DNA of 32,943 nucleotides. It comes from a virus. A program made the translations under genes and the position numbers. The DNA lies in IMG/VR virus record IMGVR_UViG_3300046488_000111, positions 1 through 32,943 of that record. One strand, given 5' to 3'. This document shows positions 2,874 to 31,701 of this stretch, piece after piece (the first letter of the stretch is position 1; every line of letters begins with the position of its first letter). The notes beneath the pieces are model-generated. The model had not been told where the DNA came from, did not search any database, and was given only the letters and a program-made list of their open reading frames with translations.

Positions 2874-3152
2874 TTATGGTTTGACAGACCGGAAATTGAA
2901 CAGCACCACACCGATATAAATTAGGACCAGAGCACCTAGCACCCACGGCTCCGACATACAGAAATACCAGGCCAAACCCACGACGATCGTCCCCTTGACC
3001 GCGAGCGCCGGAACCGTACCGGCGCGCGCGATCGCGTAGCGCATTGCAGGATTCAACTCGCGGCCGCCAGCGCTGAGGACGCGCCATGTGGTCCAAGCAT
3101 CGAGCGCCTGCAGCAGCGCCAATGCGATGAGGAGTAGGACAGAAATCGCCAT
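2874..3152 (-). CDS. Small membrane protein, DUF5658-like
   Basis: The 92-residue protein starts MAISVLLLIALALLQALDAW and has three hydrophobic segments (about 2-17, 43-60 and 66-84). The arrangement of an Asp near two Thr/Trp residues in helix 1 (DAWTTWRVL) followed by GGRELNPAM is like bacterial DUF5658-type membrane proteins, whose role is unknown. The start was chosen because it forms a 1-nt TGATG overlap with the upstream gene. It sits between the DGR-side genes and the lysis cassette and is followed by a terminator. A lysis or superinfection role is possible but unshown. Confidence 0.6.
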   Translation of the reverse strand: MAISVLLLIALALLQALDAWTTWRVLSAGGRELNPAMRYAIARAGTVPALAVKGTIVVGLAWYFCMSEPWVLGALVLIYIGVVLFNFRSVKP

Positions 3153-3565
3153 CACAGCCCCAGCTTCACTTTCTCGTTCCGGCCCCAGTTCCGGCACTCT
3201 TCGGCATACGCGTTGTAGGCGATCATTTCAGGGCTCGGCGCGGTGCGCAGCAGCTTGATCTCGTCGGTTACGGAATAGCGCTCCGCGATCGCTTCCCGCA
3301 CGCGCGCGTCGATGATCTTGCAGTGCGGGCTGGCCGCACGCAGCGTCTCACGCAGGGTCTCGGTCATGGTCACAGCCTGCGGCACGATGCCCTCCGGCTG
3401 TTCTCCTGGCAGCGTGACGCCATCGGGCAGCACGTAGTAGGTCAGGCCGTCGATCTCGGCGATCTCCATGCCCAGAGGTTGATGCGTGGCCGAATCTTCA
3501 GGCCGGCGCAGATCCCGCGTGGTGACTGCGTCGATAAGTTTTCGGTAGGCGACAATAGAGGGCAT
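3152..3565 (-). CDS. Phage protein, possibly tail-fibre-associated
   Basis: The 137-residue soluble protein has no signal or membrane segment. The C-terminal part (IKLLRTAPS, then AYAEECRNWGRNEKVKLGL) is reminiscent of short conserved tails in phage fibre-assembly or fibre-adjacent proteins, but I cannot name a family with confidence. GGAG lies upstream of ATG at 3565. Its first 68 nt overlap the 3' end of the reverse transcriptase gene in another frame, so it is transcribed with the DGR. A chaperone role for the DGR target or fibres is only a positional guess. Confidence 0.6.
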   Translation of the reverse strand: MPSIVAYRKLIDAVTTRDLRRPEDSATHQPLGMEIAEIDGLTYYVLPDGVTLPGEQPEGIVPQAVTMTETLRETLRAASPHCKIIDARVREAIAERYSVTDEIKLLRTAPSPEMIAYNAYAEECRNWGRNEKVKLGL

Positions 3566-4517
3566 GGCTCTTCTCCAGGATGTGGCTCAACATGTGCTGC
3601 AGGGAGTGCGTGCGCTTGGCGTGGCCGAGGATTGATGTCACTGATTCCAGGCGGCCGGCGCGCACCGCACGACGAAAGTTGTACAGGCTGCGGCGGCGCA
3701 CGAAGCGCTTGCCCGCCCAGGTTCTATAACCTACGAAGTTGACGCCGCGCGCCAGGGGCGCAATAGTCCATTTCGAATATTCCAAGTGCAGACGTGTGCG
3801 CAGAAACGTTTCGATCTGCTCCTTGCATTCGGCCGCCCGCTCGCGGGTGAGGCCGAAGAGCATCAGGTCGTCGACGTAGCGCCCATACCATTTGACCTTC
3901 AGCTCGCGCTTGATGAAGTGATCCACTGGATTGAGGTAAATCAGGGCATAGAGCTGCGAAAGTAAATTGCCAATCGGCACGCCCACATCGCCGTCCATAT
4001 TCGCGAACGCCATCATCAGGTTGACCATGCGGCGGTCCTTGATGCGGCGCTCCACGAGCGTGCGCAGGATGCCCCGGTCGATGCGGTAGAAAAACCGTCG
4101 CACGTCGAGTTTCAGGGTGTAGCTATCCCGTGGGCAGGCCTGCAGCGCTTCTTGAGCGTAATCGGCCGCGGCGTGCGTGCCCATGCCCACACGGCAGGCG
4201 AAGCTCTGATCGATGAAGCCGCGCTCGAATATAGGGCCGATCACGCGGTAGATCGCGTGCTGGACTACGCGATCACGAAAAGCCGGCGCGTGGATCAGTC
4301 GCGCCTTGGGTTCGTAGACCCAGAACGTGAAATAGTCCCGCGGCTGGTAAGTGTCGGCCGCCAGTTCCTCCTCCAGGCGCCCGAGATTCCAGCCTAGATG
4401 CCGCTCGAATTCAAAGCACGAGCGGCTGCTGCGCTTGTTCCGGCGTGCGTCCTGGTGGGCGTCCAATAGCGCATTTAGGCCGAATGCGTGCTGGTATAGA
4501 TTACCGTGGCGGTGCAC
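3498..4517 (-). CDS. DGR reverse transcriptase
   Basis: The 339-residue reverse transcriptase has motif A as LKLDVRRFF (D138) and motif C as YVDD (residues 214-217). In place of the usual QGxxxSP it has IGNLLSQ (182-188), the signature that separates DGR enzymes from group II intron and retroviral ones. GVNFVGYR (258-265) is the usual downstream motif. The protein makes mutated cDNA of the template RNA, misreading adenines. It starts with GTG at 4517, with AGGTG a few nt upstream. It lies 130 nt past TR and two genes after the target gene, in the same direction. There is no maturase or endonuclease domain, as expected for a DGR. All catalytic residues are intact. Confidence 0.95.
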   Translation of the reverse strand: MHRHGNLYQHAFGLNALLDAHQDARRNKRSSRSCFEFERHLGWNLGRLEEELAADTYQPRDYFTFWVYEPKARLIHAPAFRDRVVQHAIYRVIGPIFERGFIDQSFACRVGMGTHAAADYAQEALQACPRDSYTLKLDVRRFFYRIDRGILRTLVERRIKDRRMVNLMMAFANMDGDVGVPIGNLLSQLYALIYLNPVDHFIKRELKVKWYGRYVDDLMLFGLTRERAAECKEQIETFLRTRLHLEYSKWTIAPLARGVNFVGYRTWAGKRFVRRRSLYNFRRAVRAGRLESVTSILGHAKRTHSLQHMLSHILEKSHALYCRLPKTYRRSHHAGSAPA

Positions 4518-4647
4518 CGCTCACCTGACCTTCGCGGCGAAGCCGCTACCGGAAAGGCGGCGGCATCCCGATTTCGCGGCTGTACAAGCCCGCGGGAAAG
4601 CGTCTCCCTCTGATCTACCATCGCGTTGCCGCGTGCGAAGCAAACCG

Positions 4648-4764
4648 GAGTCCGCCCGAAACCCGTAGTTGTTGTTCGAGTCCGCGCGCGTGTTGTTCAA
4701 ATTCAGCGCCCACACCCCAGCGTTCGCAGCGTTGTTCCAGTTCCCGCCAGAGATCGGGCACAGC
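4648..4764 (-). repeat. DGR template repeat (TR)
   Basis: A 117-bp near-copy of VR lies 3 nt after the avd stop codon and upstream of the reverse transcriptase. Read on the minus strand it has 25 adenines, clustered in AAC triplets within the mutable core. Sixteen of these differ in VR and nine are kept; no non-adenine position differs. The outer boundary on the RT side is set where non-adenine mismatches begin (4647 and beyond). A 4-bp stem with a GCAA loop (4622-4633) follows TR. Confidence 0.97.
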
Positions 4765-4767
4765 ATG

Positions 4768-5169
4768 TTAAGACGCCTCCCCGAGCCGCTCCGCCCGAAC
4801 CCAGCCGCCGATCATGCGCCCCAGCTCGTCCACCAAACGCGAAACGGCGACATGCCGGTGGGCGGCGAGCCGCCTCGGCGCATCGTCGCTGCGCGCCCCG
4901 TCCTTGAACTCGAAGTAACCGAGTTCCTGGGCGAGATTGATGAACATGCGTAGTTGCTCATGCCGGACGTTCAGGTTGGCCAGAGTAGTTTTCTTGTGAA
5001 AGCGCTTTTGCGCCTCCACGATCATTCCATACACGTCATAGGCGGCCTGGCGGATCTGCTGCGACAGGCCGTACTTCTCGGACTTCGGAAAGTGGTTTAA
5101 ATACACGTTCAACAATTTTGCGAACTCCATGAATTTACGGTTCAGCTCAGCTTCCGAATGCAGTCCCAT
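4768..5169 (-). CDS. avd: DGR accessory variability determinant (Avd-like)
   Basis: The 133-residue, mostly helical, basic protein has no membrane segment. Segments such as FMEFAKLLNVYLNHFPKSEK, then QQIRQAAYDVYGMIVEAQ and RMFINLAQELGYF, match the four-helix-bundle pattern of Avd proteins. Avd proteins bind template RNA and the reverse transcriptase and are needed for mutagenic homing. Length is close to the family's usual ~120-130 residues. It lies between the VR-bearing gene and TR, the standard place. The ribosome binding site is weak (GAAAG), and a small hairpin (5184-5197) sits just upstream, so translation may depend on coupling with the target gene or be deliberately low. Confidence 0.88.
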   Translation of the reverse strand: MGLHSEAELNRKFMEFAKLLNVYLNHFPKSEKYGLSQQIRQAAYDVYGMIVEAQKRFHKKTTLANLNVRHEQLRMFINLAQELGYFEFKDGARSDDAPRRLAAHRHVAVSRLVDELGRMIGGWVRAERLGEAS

Positions 5170-5183
5170 GTCGCTGTTCTTTC

Positions 5184-5197
5184 GGCGCTCCCGCGCC
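5184..5197 (-). promoter_or_regulatory. Hairpin with GGGA tetraloop 3' of VR
   Basis: On the minus strand GGCGC (5197-5193) and GCGCC (5188-5184) form a 5-bp stem with loop GGGA, 20 nt beyond the VR end and 10 nt past the target stop codon. Known DGR targets carry a hairpin or cruciform with a GRNA loop just after VR that raises homing efficiency; this fits loop and place, though the stem is shorter. Confidence 0.6.
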
Positions 5198-5207
5198 TCT
5201 CACAAAG

Positions 5208-6524
5208 TTACAAATACGAGGCCGCCCGAAACCCGCAGAGGCCGTTCGAGACCGCGCGCGCGCTGCCCAAATACAGCGCCCACACCCCAGCGTCCGCAGC
5301 GGAGGTCCAGTTCCCGCCAGAGATCGGGCACAGCTCATTCGGACGAGCTACATAGAAGTAGTCATTGCCGAACAAGTTGGAACCCCCAATGCCCGCGGTC
5401 AGCGGCGCGCCGAGTCCGGTCCATTCCCACAGCTGGCCCGAGGTCGCTTCGGACAACACCTGCGAGGCTGAGCCGAAACCCTTGTTTGCGTCGCCCGCGG
5501 TCGCGCCCTGGTAGACCCCGGCCGCGCCGATCGCCGTGTATAACGCAGCGATTCCGGTCGCGCCCCACAGGTCGGTGGCTAGCGTGTTGCTGCCCGTGAC
5601 GGTCTTCATTTGCACCGCGCTTTTGAGGATGTAGTAGTTGGTGCCGTCGGAGGTAAGTCCGGGCGTGATCTCCCACAGGTTGCCATTCAGGTCCGCGATG
5701 CCGCAGTTCTGCCCGTTGTGCGTAGTCTTGGCCAGGGTGACGCCCGAGCCTGCCTTCGATTGGCTGGCGTAGCTGCCGATGGTGAAAGTGACGCCAGAAT
5801 CGTTGATGTCCACCAGTGTGTTGTTGTTGCCCTTTGGGAAGTTGGTAGCGCCGGCCGAGTACCAGGCGCAGTAAGTGGTGGCGTTCGCCGCCTGACCGTG
5901 CGCGGTGGCGAGCATAGCCAGCGCAGAGAAAATAAACCGACTGTTGCAGAAGAAATTCGCCCCGCGCGATTTCGCTGCCGCGATCGCGCCGCCGAAGTTA
6001 TTGGCCGGCGTCCCGGTCAAATCGGAGAACGGATTGCTGCCGGCCGCGGACGAAAGCGGATTGCCGAGGTAGATCGAGCTCGCCGTGGTGCCGTTTTTTG
6101 AGCACAGATACTTGTCCACGAACACGCCGCGCTGCTTGAGGCCACCATCGTAAAAGGCGCGGTGCAGGGCATAGCCGCTCGCGTTGGCAGAGGCCACGCT
6201 GGCGAAGTAGCTCTCGGCCTTGATGTCGATCAGATTCAGCGTCAGGCCATTGGCGCCGGTGCCCACCTTGTAATAGAAGGCCGGGATCCACACCATGATG
6301 CTGCCATCCGAGTATTGGTAGTTGCCGTAATCGTCCGCGCCCTTGGTGCGCGTGCCGGGCAGCTCGGCGTATCCGGCCGGCACGGCCGGACACACGCCCA
6401 CCCCGAACCCTTGGCCGCCGGCGACGCCGATGTGGTTCACCGCGCCGATGGCCGCGTCCCAGAGTTGATTCATCAGATCGCTGTAGTTGGGTACACCAGG
6501 ATAGAAGATGGTGGAAATTGTCAT
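5208..6524 (-). CDS. DGR target: variable C-type-lectin-like tail protein
   Basis: The 438-residue protein has VR at its extreme C-terminus. The last ~60 residues (GNDYFYVARPNELCPISGG onward, then GVWAL and GFRAA) are the C-type-lectin/formylglycine-enzyme-like fold seen in DGR variable proteins; repeated ANLNGNLWE- and GQLWEWTG-like motifs before it belong to the same fold. The N-terminal half (starting MTISTIFYPGVPNYSDLMNQ) has PAFYYKVG and VDKYLC-like strands and is probably the attachment domain. No signal peptide is present, as expected for a virion protein. Its ATG overlaps the stop of the upstream tail gene by 1 nt (TAATG). By family and position it should be the receptor-binding tip whose binding surface is diversified. 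The actual ligand cannot be read from sequence. Confidence 0.9.
   Translation of the reverse strand: MTISTIFYPGVPNYSDLMNQLWDAAIGAVNHIGVAGGQGFGVGVCPAVPAGYAELPGTRTKGADDYGNYQYSDGSIMVWIPAFYYKVGTGANGLTLNLIDIKAESYFASVASANASGYALHRAFYDGGLKQRGVFVDKYLCSKNGTTASSIYLGNPLSSAAGSNPFSDLTGTPANNFGGAIAAAKSRGANFFCNSRFIFSALAMLATAHGQAANATTYCAWYSAGATNFPKGNNNTLVDINDSGVTFTIGSYASQSKAGSGVTLAKTTHNGQNCGIADLNGNLWEITPGLTSDGTNYYILKSAVQMKTVTGSNTLATDLWGATGIAALYTAIGAAGVYQGATAGDANKGFGSASQVLSEATSGQLWEWTGLGAPLTAGIGGSNLFGNDYFYVARPNELCPISGGNWTSAADAGVWALYLGSARAVSNGLCGFRAASYL
5218..5334 (-). repeat. DGR variable repeat (VR)
   Basis: This is the recipient copy of TR, ending 7 nt before the TAA stop of the target gene. The 16 differences from TR change 12 codons, for example Asn to Thr, Ser, Asp, Tyr, Gly and Leu, Thr to Ala, Asp to Val and Tyr to Cys. 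The invariant 3' core GGGTTTCGGGCGG (5222-5234 region) is the likely initiation-of-homing segment. Confidence 0.97.
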
Positions 6525-8002: not shown

Positions 8003-8305
8003 TTACTGGAAAAGTCGGTTAATTCGATCTTCCTGCGCTGCCCTTCTTAGCTCCTCGGCCCACCGCGCCTGCTCTATGGCGGCAAGAGCATCCGCCGCCG
8101 CTTTTGACGATTCGTCGCTAGGCAACATGCCGCGCGGCTTGTACCCCTCGGCATCCTTCGCGGCGCGGTAGGCCGCCACGTGTTTCTCGCGCCGGCATTT
8201 CGCCAGCACCGCCTCCGGGCCGACCGTTGCGAGCGCGTGCGCTATCCACGCGTCCGAATCTTCGACGAGGTGCGCCAGCACGGCTTTGTCGGTGTCGGTC
8301 AGCAT
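8003..8305 (-). CDS. Hypothetical helical protein next to tail fibre
   Basis: The 100-residue protein is highly charged and almost wholly helical (LVEDSDAWIAHALATVG, ALAAIEQARWAEELRRAAQE). Its start overlaps the stop of the C1q-like fibre gene by 7 nt, so it is translationally coupled to it. Size, coupling and place immediately after a fibre gene suit a fibre chaperone or assembly protein. No family signature was recognised, so this is a contextual suggestion. Confidence 0.55.
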   Translation of the reverse strand: MLTDTDKAVLAHLVEDSDAWIAHALATVGPEAVLAKCRREKHVAAYRAAKDAEGYKPRGMLPSDESSKAAADALAAIEQARWAEELRRAAQEDRINRLFQ

Positions 8306-9702
8306 GCGAGTTCCCCCGAGAAGAAGGTTCCGGTACCACTAAGCACGTCAGCATTCGCCGCGCCCTGGCCGCTCACTGTGACGATCACTTTGGCGACATC
8401 GCCGGCGTCCATGTCTGCGAGCACGCTGCCGCCGACTGACCAGCTGGTAGCCCAAGAACCTTCCAGGTTTGCGACGAACCAGTTGTGGTTGCTCGTCCAG
8501 ATCTGCGCGTCAATGGACGTAGCGCCCGACAGCCCCCCGATATGGGATCCAGTGGAAAGGCGGTATTTCCCTGTCACTGGCGCCGTGAATTCACCGGTGG
8601 CGTTGTTGTAGTTGGCCGCCTGGTCAAATATCTCGGTGTCACAAATGACGGTGTAATCGGTACCGTTCCCGGTGACGTTGTTGTCCGCTGCCGAGTTGTA
8701 GGCAAGGAAAGCGGGTTGGCCCAGAGCCGCAACACCCTGGAGAAGAACAGGATGAAAGGCAGTCGCATCAAAATATTCCAGCCTGTATGACCCATCGACA
8801 TACAAATCGCCGGGATTTCCGACAGACGGCGCGCTGTTCGCAACAATGTTGATCGCCGCCCTGGTGGCATTGGTAGTGAATTGAGCTGCGTAGTTAGAAC
8901 CGGATTCAAATAATCCGCCGATCCCGGAAGTGGACCACCCGCGCACCCCGTAACTTTGGTCAGATAAACCGTACACGCCATAGCTGGAATGTGATTCTCC
9001 CAGCACCCCATAGGCCGCGTGCGACTGTCCGTAGACGCCAACGGCCGAATAGCTTCTTCCGTACAGCCCGACCTTTGAATTACCCGAGTTCGTTGTGCCG
9101 AACAACCCGATTATCGAATCGAGCCCGACGGCGTTTATTCCGATGCTCGCCAACGCCTCGACCGTACCGTCTCCGCGATCGCCGTAGAACGTCATTTCGT
9201 TCGGCGTGGTGACGTTTATGTCCATGCGCTTGCCGCTTGCCGCTGTACTGAACAACGCGCCGGTCGCAGCGAGAATCCCCGCCTGGGTGATCGTCACCGT
9301 CGGCGCGCCCGTCGGCCCAGCGGAGAATGCGGTCGCGCCCGAGGATAGAATGGTCTTGTTGCCACCCGCCGTTGCCGACAGATCGGTCGCGCCGATCGTC
9401 CAGCCGCCAATCGCCCCCGCGACAGCCGTAATCGTGCCAGCCAGCGACACATCCCCGGTGCTGGCGTCGAGCGTCAAGGTGGGCACGCCGGCCTTAGCAG
9501 CGAAGATCCCACCCTTGTGCATCACCACGCCGGTGCCGGAGGTGACCGCGCCGGTCGCATGGTCCCAGACGATAGACCCCGACTGGATCGCGCCCACGTA
9601 GTTGGCAGAATCGAACGTCACCGTTTCGATCAGCGGCGAGGTGCCGACCCGCGGGCTGACCGCCGCGAGCCTGAGCATGCGCGTGGAGACGACGGCAGCC
9701 AT
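8299..9702 (-). CDS. Tail fibre/spike with decapeptide repeats and C1q-like tip
   Basis: The protein has 467 residues. Residues about 208-257 form five tandem decapeptides of pattern xxxxGVxGxS (for example YSAVGVYGQS, HSSYGVYGLS), likely a rigid trimeric shaft. From about residue 329 the sequence resembles a C1q/TNF-type jelly roll (QPAFLAYNS, then FTAPVTGKYRLS), a fold used as a trimeric binding head. The N-terminal ~120 residues (ending near GAIGGWTIGATDLSA) look like the part that attaches to the tail. Start overlaps the upstream baseplate gene by 1 nt (TAATG). It is a second, non-DGR adhesin, so this phage carries a fixed and a variable receptor-binding candidate. Confidence 0.8.
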   Translation of the reverse strand: MAAVVSTRMLRLAAVSPRVGTSPLIETVTFDSANYVGAIQSGSIVWDHATGAVTSGTGVVMHKGGIFAAKAGVPTLTLDASTGDVSLAGTITAVAGAIGGWTIGATDLSATAGGNKTILSSGATAFSAGPTGAPTVTITQAGILAATGALFSTAASGKRMDINVTTPNEMTFYGDRGDGTVEALASIGINAVGLDSIIGLFGTTNSGNSKVGLYGRSYSAVGVYGQSHAAYGVLGESHSSYGVYGLSDQSYGVRGWSTSGIGGLFESGSNYAAQFTTNATRAAINIVANSAPSVGNPGDLYVDGSYRLEYFDATAFHPVLLQGVAALGQPAFLAYNSAADNNVTGNGTDYTVICDTEIFDQAANYNNATGEFTAPVTGKYRLSTGSHIGGLSGATSIDAQIWTSNHNWFVANLEGSWATSWSVGGSVLADMDAGDVAKVIVTVSGQGAANADVLSGTGTFFSGELAC

Positions 9703-16020: not shown

Positions 16021-16119
16021 AGTTGTCTCCTGATTGCCTGAACCTGAAAGAGAAGCAGCGGGAAAACGCGCTCAGGCAAACGCGCTTGTCGGCCGGCCGG
16101 CCTATCCCCGCCGCAGGGG

Positions 16120-22466: not shown

Positions 22467-24275
22467 TCACGCCGCCTGTCGCAGCGCCTGCGGCGCCCGG
22501 ATACGCATGTATTCGCGCACGACTTTGACCACGCTGGCCGGCGCGATTACCGCCTGGCACAGCGCCTTGCCGGTTGCCGCATCAGCGGTGCAGTGGCCCA
22601 TGTGGTGATGGATCCGGTGGCAGGGCCAGCATGGCGCTGCCTCCGGCAGAATTTCCACCGCATTAACCCAGTGTAATGTCAGGTCGCCCGGCGCCGAGTG
22701 GGTCAGCAGTACCACCTTCAGCATGGGTGCCATCGCCACCGCATTCAGAATCCCGGTCTCCTGCCCGACGACCGCGTCAGCGAGCTGCGCGAACGCAAGC
22801 AGCTGACGCAATGGCCAACTGGTGCCGACGAGGCGCACGCCTGGCGCGGTCTTCGCATCCTTCAGATCGCCGAGATCACCAGCGATGAGGACGTTGACGC
22901 CCTCGGCCGCCAGCGTCTCGGCGAACGCGAGCACATGCGGCCAGTATTTGGTCGGAGACGAACCGGACGCCGCCACCAGGACGACTGGTCCCTCGATCTT
23001 GTCACGTTCTGCCCGCGCCCAGGCAACTTCCTCCGCGCTCGGGTAGAAGCGCTGATGGAAGTCCGCCTGCACCAAGCCCGGCACGCCGGCGAGCGCGTGC
23101 AGGCGCTCGAGATAGTTGCCGCCGAAAACCTGCCGCCGCAGCGCCTGCGGCCAGTAATAGCGTAGATCCGCCTCGATCGCGATCATGTTCTTTTCGATCG
23201 ATTCGTTGAGATTGATCACGCGATCGTACTTTTTCGTCTCCCGTTCGATGAAGCCGGCAGCGACGTTGCCCGGCATCTCGTGGTACATGACGATCGCATC
23301 GACGTTCGGATCGTGCCGCAGCATTTCCTCCCCGCGCTGCTCGGTGTAGACCGTGACGTGGTAGCCCTCCGCCTTCAGGTGCGGTAGAACCGAACTCGCC
23401 ATGATCACGTCGCCGTAGGCACCCGGCCGGATCACGGCCACCCTCTTCTGCCCGGGCGCGGGGTCGCGATCGTTGCGGCCGATCGGCGCGAGCGCGCGCC
23501 GCCAGTCGTCGGCCGGGCCCGAGACCTCGCACAAGGCGATGCGCGCGGCCTTCTCGCGCGGCACGCACAGCATATTGATCGAGACGATGCCCGGGAAAAT
23601 GTTGTCGCGGTTGCCGCGGACATTGCCCGGGTTAAACAGCGGCGGCAGGTGCCACCACATCTGGTAATCAAGTGCCGCGATCACATTGATCAGCGCCGCC
23701 GATTTCTCGGCGCGGTCGTTTTCCACGTACAGCGTCGGGCGCAGCCGGTGGATGGTGTCCACCGCGCCGGCGATAACCTCGGCCTCCATGCCTTCGACAT
23801 CGATCTTGAGCAGGTGCAGCGCGTCCAGGTTGAGGCTGTCGATGGTCACCAGCGGCACCGATTCACCGTTGCCCGCGCCGAGTTCGACGCCGCCGAAATT
23901 GCCGACCTCGCCATAGTTCACTTCAGGTACGGCGATCATACCGGGGGCCGCCCCGACGGCAGCGTGGACCGCCATACTGTTCGCGCAACCGTTCTCGCGC
24001 AGGTTCGCAGCCAGAATCTCGTGGATGGCGCGCTGCGGCTCGAACGCGATCAGCCGACCCTCGGCGCCGATGTGCTTCGCCAAGTGCACACTGTGGGCGC
24101 CGATGTTCGCACCGACCTCCACAATCACCTGGCCGGGCCGTGTCAACTGCTCGAGCAGCCCGGCTTCGGCATCCGAGAATTCTCCGTACTGTTCGAGCGA
24201 CATGCCGATGAACTTATCGTTCGGCGGGTACCGCAGCACGCCGTGCTTGCAGCGTGCAATTGCTGTTTCGATCAT
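22467..24275 (-). CDS. FkbM methyltransferase-GT9 glycosyltransferase fusion
   Basis: The protein has 602 residues. Residues 1-~250 are an FkbM-type SAM-dependent methyltransferase: VGANIGAHS (54-62), AFEP (77-80) and KIDVEGMEAEV (157-167) are its SAM and core motifs. Residues ~278-600 form a heptosyltransferase-like GT9 domain: VAVIRPGAYGDVIMASSVLP at its start, then VAASGSSPTKYWP and VGQETGILNAVAMA. Both domains look intact. The gene lies between large terminase and gpW, with GGAG 7 nt before ATG, and shares the operon's direction. It is a cargo gene that could modify host LPS or capsule or virion sugars. GC and style match the neighbours, so it is not obviously a recent insertion. Confidence 0.85.
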   Translation of the reverse strand: MIETAIARCKHGVLRYPPNDKFIGMSLEQYGEFSDAEAGLLEQLTRPGQVIVEVGANIGAHSVHLAKHIGAEGRLIAFEPQRAIHEILAANLRENGCANSMAVHAAVGAAPGMIAVPEVNYGEVGNFGGVELGAGNGESVPLVTIDSLNLDALHLLKIDVEGMEAEVIAGAVDTIHRLRPTLYVENDRAEKSAALINVIAALDYQMWWHLPPLFNPGNVRGNRDNIFPGIVSINMLCVPREKAARIALCEVSGPADDWRRALAPIGRNDRDPAPGQKRVAVIRPGAYGDVIMASSVLPHLKAEGYHVTVYTEQRGEEMLRHDPNVDAIVMYHEMPGNVAAGFIERETKKYDRVINLNESIEKNMIAIEADLRYYWPQALRRQVFGGNYLERLHALAGVPGLVQADFHQRFYPSAEEVAWARAERDKIEGPVVLVAASGSSPTKYWPHVLAFAETLAAEGVNVLIAGDLGDLKDAKTAPGVRLVGTSWPLRQLLAFAQLADAVVGQETGILNAVAMAPMLKVVLLTHSAPGDLTLHWVNAVEILPEAAPCWPCHRIHHHMGHCTADAATGKALCQAVIAPASVVKVVREYMRIRAPQALRQAA

Positions 24276-30302: not shown

Positions 30303-30848
30303 TCAGGCCGGCTCATGTTCGCCGGATAGCTCGCGCCGCACCCGCGCGCGCACTCGATCGAATTCTGGACGCGAAAACACGCCGCAGGCGCCCACCAGCG
30401 CGCATGTGCGCCACCAGGCGAAGGTCTCGCGGAAAGCGCTGTTCAGCGGCACCGCCCGTGGCCACGAGGTCAGCACCTGCGGTCCGGCGCGCGTATAGGT
30501 CAAATCGGCGGCCGAGGCAGACCGGCCAAGTTCGTCCACGCACCATACCAGCCCCGGCTCGCCACGCTCGAAGATGGCGGCGAGGCCCAACTGGTGCATG
30601 TGGCGCGCGGCCGTCAGGCTCAATGTTTCCGGCTTGAAGCAAGACACAAGAACGTCGAGCCCGCGCAGGATCGCCAGGTCGCCGGTGTCGAAGGGATAGT
30701 CGAACGGCAGGCCGATGCGCGCGACGCCCGCCTGGCCTTTCAATGTCTGCGCGTCGATGATGTGCCCCAGCGCAACCACCACCACCCAGGGCACCTTGCC
30801 CGCTTCGCGCAACTTCAGTAACGCCTTGCCGTAGGCGGGCAATCTCAT
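30303..30848 (-). CDS. Hypothetical early protein upstream of VapE
   Basis: The 181-residue protein starts MRLPAYGKALLKLREAGKVP with GAGGGG 5 nt upstream. It has beta-like PWVVVVALGHI and a central part resembling a nucleotide-handling fold (ILRGLDVLVSCFKPETLSL), ending in a helical, basic tail. It directly precedes the VapE gene and is divergent from the 30933 gene, with the 76-bp repeat between. It may be the primase partner, but no primase motif is evident. Function not assigned. Confidence 0.6.
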   Translation of the reverse strand: MRLPAYGKALLKLREAGKVPWVVVVALGHIIDAQTLKGQAGVARIGLPFDYPFDTGDLAILRGLDVLVSCFKPETLSLTAARHMHQLGLAAIFERGEPGLVWCVDELGRSASAADLTYTRAGPQVLTSWPRAVPLNSAFRETFAWWRTCALVGACGVFSRPEFDRVRARVRRELSGEHEPA

Positions 30849-30859
30849 CGCCGCCCCTC

Positions 30860-30935
30860 GAAAAAGGCGGAGGCCCCAGCCGTGCTAGATTGTCGATTCC
30901 CCAACCGATCAACCTTCACGAAAGGAGCCTCCATG
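30860..30935. repeat. 76-bp leader repeat, copy 1
   Basis: It shares 74 of 76 bases with 31626-31701 (differences at 30875 and 30913). It lies between divergent genes and ends with the ATG of the 30933 gene. It contains the Shine-Dalgarno AAAGGAG. Confidence 0.9.
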
Positions 30936-31183: not shown

Positions 31184-31582
31184 TCATGCACGCCTCCCCT
31201 CGATGGTGAGTATCTGGACACCGCCGGAGAGCGCGGGCGGCGTTCCCGTCGGCGCATAGGGCCAGCCCCGCAGCTGAGACCCGCTCTGCGCGAAACCAGA
31301 CACACGTGGCAGCGGGCGCTTGCCGATCCTTTGCTTGCGCTTCGGGACCAACCAGACCACCTTCGGCGCGCCAGACTTCGGAATGCGCCTCGCCGTTGAA
31401 TCGATCTCCGAAGCGACGGCGCCGGTGCGCTCGAACACCAGGACCAGATTGCGGATGGTGCTCAGCGACAAATCCATCTTCGCCGCCAGCGCATGGATCG
31501 TGCTGCGCGGCTTGTCGCGCAACAACTGCAAGAACTCCTCACGCCGGGCCGGATCTCTGCAAACCCATGCGCGGGTTCCCAT
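31184..31582 (-). CDS. Winged-helix/HTH regulator
   Basis: The 132-residue protein starts MGTRAWVCRDPARREEFLQL and contains STIHALAAKMDLSLSTIRNL, a good helix-turn-helix with recognition helix at STIRNL. A wing-like basic strand follows (TARRIPKSGAPKVVWLV) and a long disordered tail. The ATG at 31582 was preferred to a longer frame that would start inside the 76-bp repeat. It is divergent from the 31699 gene with the second repeat copy between, so this repeat is a candidate operator for this or another phage regulator. Confidence 0.65.
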   Translation of the reverse strand: MGTRAWVCRDPARREEFLQLLRDKPRSTIHALAAKMDLSLSTIRNLVLVFERTGAVASEIDSTARRIPKSGAPKVVWLVPKRKQRIGKRPLPRVSGFAQSGSQLRGWPYAPTGTPPALSGGVQILTIEGRRA

Positions 31583-31625
31583 GGCCGCGCGCCTATTCCA
31601 CCTGCGCGCGCGGCGCGCGACGGTG

Positions 31626-31701
31626 GAAAAAGGCGGAGGCTCCAGCCGTGCTAGATTGTCGATTCCCCAACCGATCAATCTTCACGAAAGGAGCCTCCAT
31701 G
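31626..31701. repeat. 76-bp leader repeat, copy 2
   Basis: Near-identical to copy 1. GGAGGCTCC (31635-31643) is the exact inverse of GGAGCCTCC (31690-31698), which holds the Shine-Dalgarno sequence. An mRNA hairpin could hide the ribosome binding site. In copy 1 one base of this stem is mismatched. Confidence 0.9.

Follow-up and report, generated by a model that had tools for sequence, protein, structure and literature searches.

We find that the window, by which we mean the whole 32,943-base stretch analysed here (virus contig IMGVR_UViG_3300046488_000111, classed as linear), almost certainly carries a complete diversity-generating retroelement (DGR) of the BPP-1 type. All the parts of such an element lie on the minus strand within 3498-6524 (Table 1), together with an adenine-only mutation trace and a conserved spacer RNA fold, and VR turnover is observed in sister populations. 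The gene order (VR gene, avd, TR, RT) and coordinates given in an earlier note on this DNA hold. So does its main claim, that a tail adhesin carries the adenine-mutagenesis trace of a complete DGR, on which RT, Avd, the TR/VR pair, its boundary, the target and the behaviour of relatives all agree. As further support we add a corrected TR/VR boundary, a hairpin past VR and a structured spacer RNA, the latter two absent from that note; the window thus offers an intact phage DGR in which each of the known cis elements has been located. Three points speak against this full reading: the hairpin stem has five pairs, Avd scores under its NCBIfam cut-off, and VR turnover is seen in sister phages only.

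Table 1. Positions in the window of the DGR parts and the adjoining gene.
Feature	Position	Strand	Description and basis
Target (VR) gene	5208-6524	-	438 aa; predicted lectin-like tail adhesin (PHROG 5302, AlphaFold2 model)
VR	5218-5334; mutable part 5222-5334	-	Re-alignment to TR
GGGTTTCGGGCGG, IMH-like VR end	5222-5234	-	Putative priming/homing end, by analogy with BPP-1
GRNA-loop hairpin GGCGC-GGGA-GCGCC	5184-5197	-	20 nt past VR
avd, accessory variability determinant	4768-5169	-	133 aa; Pfam, PHROG
TR	4648-4764; templating part 4652-4764	-	Re-alignment; boundary from relatives
Structured spacer RNA, including TR 3' end	4517-4668	-	Covariance model built without the window
DGR reverse transcriptase (RT)	3498-4517	-	339 aa; IGNLLSQ, YVDD; profile searches
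137 aa gene overlapping the RT end	3152-3565	-	Not a DGR part

Metagenomes have yielded a catalogue of more than 30,000 DGRs, in which three mainly phage lineages seemingly diversify attachment proteins (PMC8144416). The window DGR is a well-preserved member of a large, well-described group and no new kind of system; the DGR mechanism itself is already well established. The comparative set assembled here (more than 60 TR/VR pairs, VR swaps within the same virus, a covarying spacer RNA and relatives that lost the cassette) makes the RNA priming model and DGR loss testable.

Re-aligning TR and VR over 117 bp without gaps, we found 16 mismatches, every one at a TR adenine of the coding strand (16 of 25) and none at the other 92 positions, exactly as had been claimed. 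The changes are 8 A>G, 4 A>C and 4 A>T, and the chance of all 16 landing on adenines is about 1e-13. They alter 12 codons, each with an amino acid change and none silently, which bears out the claim that every mismatch changes an amino acid. The likeness of the two repeats, which are spaced 570 bases apart, ends abruptly at both flanks.

The earlier note counted all 16 mismatches as homing trace; 15 of them stand. The 3'-most mismatch (TR A4651/VR C5221, the A of GACTC) is, judged by comparison among relatives, a fixed IMH*/IMH difference and not a homing mutation. At this base, VR carries C in 59 and T in 1 of 60 non-redundant loci ending in GACT (window included), while C occurs at 15% of ordinary adenine sites. 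Since A4651/C5221 is fixed in relatives, the homing trace amounts to changes at 15 of the 24 adenines in a stretch of 113 bp (TR 4652-4764, VR 5222-5334). The fixed differences begin at 5221 in the window and likewise in relatives. The adjoining GGGTTTCGGGCGG at 5222-5234 shows zero TR/VR differences in the window, and in relatives the fixed differences come directly after it. By analogy, this 3' end of VR would act as the IMH. A fixed A>C at the TR/VR boundary can mimic a homing mutation and is a pitfall in counting DGR traces.

To collect relatives, we scanned with an RT alignment and kept the best 80 of 308 viral loci and 16 genome loci; a genome scan with a single RT sequence had returned nothing, and the RT alignment then gave those 16. 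A script located TR and VR in nearly all relatives with sufficient flank. Across 63 non-redundant TR/VR pairs from the listed relatives, 57% of TR adenines were changed compared with 1.1% of other bases. T>G was the commonest of the rare non-adenine differences in relatives, and these gave no sign of a second mutation class in the window.

Some relatives are the same virus sampled from different metagenomes (L018/L020/L024; L043/L045/L047/L048; L049/L051/L053/L057/L058; L013/L014/L015). Within each set no difference is seen in TR, in RT or over the 600 bases upstream of VR, and VR itself varies at up to 22 sites, which are TR adenines in nearly every case. Constant TR and RT with differing VR in repeatedly sampled relatives indicate that the DGRs of this clade are at work in nature. 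That RT replaces VR and leaves TR as it is can be seen only indirectly, from sister genomes whose TRs are identical and whose VRs differ. The TR conservation with VR divergence that the earlier note looked for among close relatives is found in the sister phages, not for the window phage, and its wording "is or was recently active" applies in the same way to sister populations. Because no second isolate of the window phage was found (an exact TR/VR pattern search matched zero viral contigs), we can only infer its own present activity.

It is conceivable, if unlikely, that the DGR formerly worked and is now inactive in the window phage, with VR as its frozen product. Relatives lose the cassette by deletion yet keep adhesin and hairpin, and the 115 bits of the window spacer RNA compare with 139-153 in several relatives outside the model. 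Set against this, every gene has an open frame and no cis element is missing, zero non-adenine TR/VR differences have accumulated, and RT retains all invariant motifs.

Profile searches matched RT to RVT_1 (9.8e-15) and PHROG 1423 (1.2e-100), and the nearest solved chain is 8ub7 (9.6e-56). In a four-sequence alignment the reported motifs IGNLLSQ and YVDD are both retained, YVDD being invariant at all four residues. With [IVL]GxxxSQ and YxDD motifs, PHROG 1423, 8ub7 and homology to BPP-1 brt, the protein fits the DGR group by sequence. That the RT belongs to a different system, such as a group II intron, a retron or a defence RT, and lies here by chance is highly improbable. NCBIfam does give group II, Drt and retron RT matches, but all are far under their cut-offs, the top one (group II RT) reaching 110 bits against a cut-off of 300; 8ub7 is the best match of known structure, the best phage hits include BPP-1 brt, and IGNLLSQ, avd and TR/VR are all in place. 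Avd scores 61.1 bits with Pfam bAvd (cut-off 40), matches PHROG 3206 ("Avd protein of DGR") and reaches 75.5 bits with the NCBIfam Avd model, slightly under its cut-off of 80; above the Pfam cut-off and within the PHROG family, it qualifies as the Avd of a DGR. An old gene-fragment duplication diverged through ordinary mutation or selection would account for two similar stretches 570 bases apart, but it has practically no chance, as zero changes at 92 non-adenine positions (about 1e-13) refute it and more than 60 relatives show the same adenine pattern.

Among known systems, the DGR of Bordetella phage BPP-1 (mtd, avd/bbp7, TR, brt) shares with the window its gene order, adenine-only TR/VR differences, Avd, GRNA hairpin past VR and lectin-fold target, at 36% identity for RT and 18% for Avd. 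The nearest annotated phage RT (58%) belongs to Pseudomonas phage Bise (OR683401), which has the same gene order and GACT boundary, and in which our model found the spacer RNA with 71 bits. Unlike the window phage, Bise has a contractile tail, a target only 32% identical and no 137 aa gene after RT. Uncultivated IMG/VR phages (L002/L028, L003, L007 and others) come with RTs 57-67% identical to that of the window and with the same gene order, boundary base, hairpin and spacer RNA; they are different phages, and their hairpin is mostly GAGC-GATA-GCGA with G.A pairs.

The target belongs to PHROG 5302 (tail protein) and matches no Pfam family above cut-off. VR occupies codons 397-436 of 438, which is the C terminus. 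The AlphaFold2 model, built from 41 sequences, has a pLDDT of 86.5, and its best structural match is Thermus aquaticus TaqVP, itself the variable protein of a DGR (5vf4, E 1e-14), followed by weaker matches to formylglycine-generating enzymes (FGE) and BPP-1 Mtd. TaqVP aligns with nearly the whole target at a TM of about 0.6 to the chain and a sequence identity of about 18%, and the target is closer to it than to BPP-1 Mtd. On this model the target is a predicted C-type-lectin-like fold with VR at its C terminus, the usual arrangement for DGR targets (PMC8144416). A diversified tail adhesin, as had been proposed, is supported; diversification "against changing host receptors" goes beyond the evidence, and host binding would be its purpose by analogy, from the fold and gene position.

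The spacer RNA was found at full length (115.3 bits, E 5e-36) by a model that excludes the window. Aligning the spacers of 38 relatives, we obtained seven helices with two-sided changes in 17 of 29 pairs. In these relatives 96.5% of cells pair, and covariation reaches 0.517, compared with 0.158 when shuffled and at most 0.088 when slid. Covariation in relatives and the 115-bit match together place a structured RNA between TR and RT. Rfam 15 gave no match over 4400-5400 of the window, spacer RNA included, and the model of the window's clade did not find the BPP-1 spacer.

In the predicted fold, the boundary A is directly followed by a CT that pairs with AG in the spacer. In BPP-1, a spacer adenine primes cDNA within the 3' junction of TR (PMC12875486). 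The pairing of this CT fits a cDNA start just upstream, as in BPP-1, by analogy with which a putative priming base can be placed here. We regard it as an even call whether the TR-spacer transcript is one of a family of structured RNAs, so far uncatalogued and common to a large clade of phage DGRs, with the last TR adenine sitting at the edge of the fold, outside the template. If true, that position would explain why the boundary A is never copied into VR, and would fix the cDNA start clade-wide.

The hairpin downstream of VR has a GRNA loop and five perfect stem pairs. Phage DGRs are described with GC stems of 7-10 bp and 4-nt GRNA loops, 4-34 bp past VR, and these hairpins are required for efficient homing (Guo et al., PMC3240598). 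The window therefore has a GRNA hairpin with a stem shorter than reported. When perfect stems were demanded, 12 of 65 loci had such a hairpin; a loose rule (GRNA loop, G.A pairs allowed) gave at most 62 of 65, an upper figure since a two-pair stem suffices under it. The commonest hairpin among relatives (for example L007 3296-3365) is GAGC-GATA-GCGA, with two G.A pairs flanking a two-pair GC stem, a form different from the simple GC stems of 7-10 bp on record for phage DGRs.

By analogy with BPP-1, the steps would run as follows. RT and Avd would bind the TR-spacer transcript, whose spacer fold would set cDNA synthesis to begin at the 3' end of TR. RT would insert varied bases opposite TR adenines, and the cDNA would then take the place of VR, where the adhesin gene has its 3' end; the conserved GGGTTTCGGGCGG and the downstream GRNA hairpin would guide it there. 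The outcome would be new residues on the lectin-like tip of the tail adhesin, with TR unaltered.

The 137 aa gene has homologues after RT in 90 of the 95 listed relatives, and we initially read it as a DGR accessory gene for that reason. Its window copy is covered by no Pfam, NCBIfam or PHROG family, and no match turned up in 50,697 phage records. Of 64 family members, 6 weakly match a PHROG of tail assembly chaperones (best 0.0011), and our guess from these matches is that the product may be a tail-fibre assembly chaperone for the adhesin. Its predicted structure has a pLDDT of 97, and a PDB search gave no clear fold match. Scanning for the gene family with a closer subset of its diverse alignment, we also found loci that lack RT. 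In five of them (L252, L268, L271, L280, L301) a 137 aa-type gene begins within 100 bases of the adhesin end. This direct adjacency ruled out a new DGR accessory gene; the arrangement indicates that the gene goes with the adhesin, and that avd-TR-RT sits between both and can be lost.

Traces of such loss are visible at the junctions. L252, L144, L265 and L253 have the start of avd and then a small remnant of the RT C terminus; L289 retains avd with the RT body gone. L252, L253 and L289 (upstream of position 5001) have had avd-TR-RT deleted or replaced and still possess the adhesin, the GRNA hairpin and the 137 aa-type gene; the junctions differ among the three, which points to several losses. 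L144 (1688-2369) and L265 (149-830), RT-less contigs from different metagenomes, share one avd-RT deletion scar. They differ at 0 of 300 positions downstream of VR and 2 of 137 upstream (2 of 437 in total), and at 18 of 113 positions within VR. Either an RT in trans still rewrites VR, or VR is exchanged by recombination, or the assemblies mislead.

The window also holds genes for a lambda-type portal, gpA-type terminase, capsid protein, tail tube, holin and primase/helicase, which indicate a long-tailed phage. The C-terminal fragment of an integrase at 180-743, the left end of the window, suggests a temperate phage; the earlier term "prophage" exceeds this evidence, which includes neither host DNA nor an attachment site. 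The closest match of the portal in our scan is just 57% identical, so that no near relative of the window phage is at hand, and the sole match in a megablast of the window against phages was an RT fragment at 73%.

Elsewhere in the window, the protein of a tail-module gene three small genes from the DGR adhesin (8299-9702, minus strand) ends in a C1q-like domain slightly under the Pfam cut-off. An Rfam int-alpA RNA match (RF02996, 40.1 bits) lies at 16043-16112 (minus strand) amid tail genes, an odd location. Between the terminase and portal genes, a 602 aa protein (22467-24275, minus strand) combines an FkbM methyltransferase domain with a C-terminal part weakly matching heptosyltransferase. 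Two ORFs on the minus strand (30313-30912 and 31184-31678) have near-identical starts, MIGWGIDNLARL(G/E)PPPFS, a likely sign of a short local duplication.
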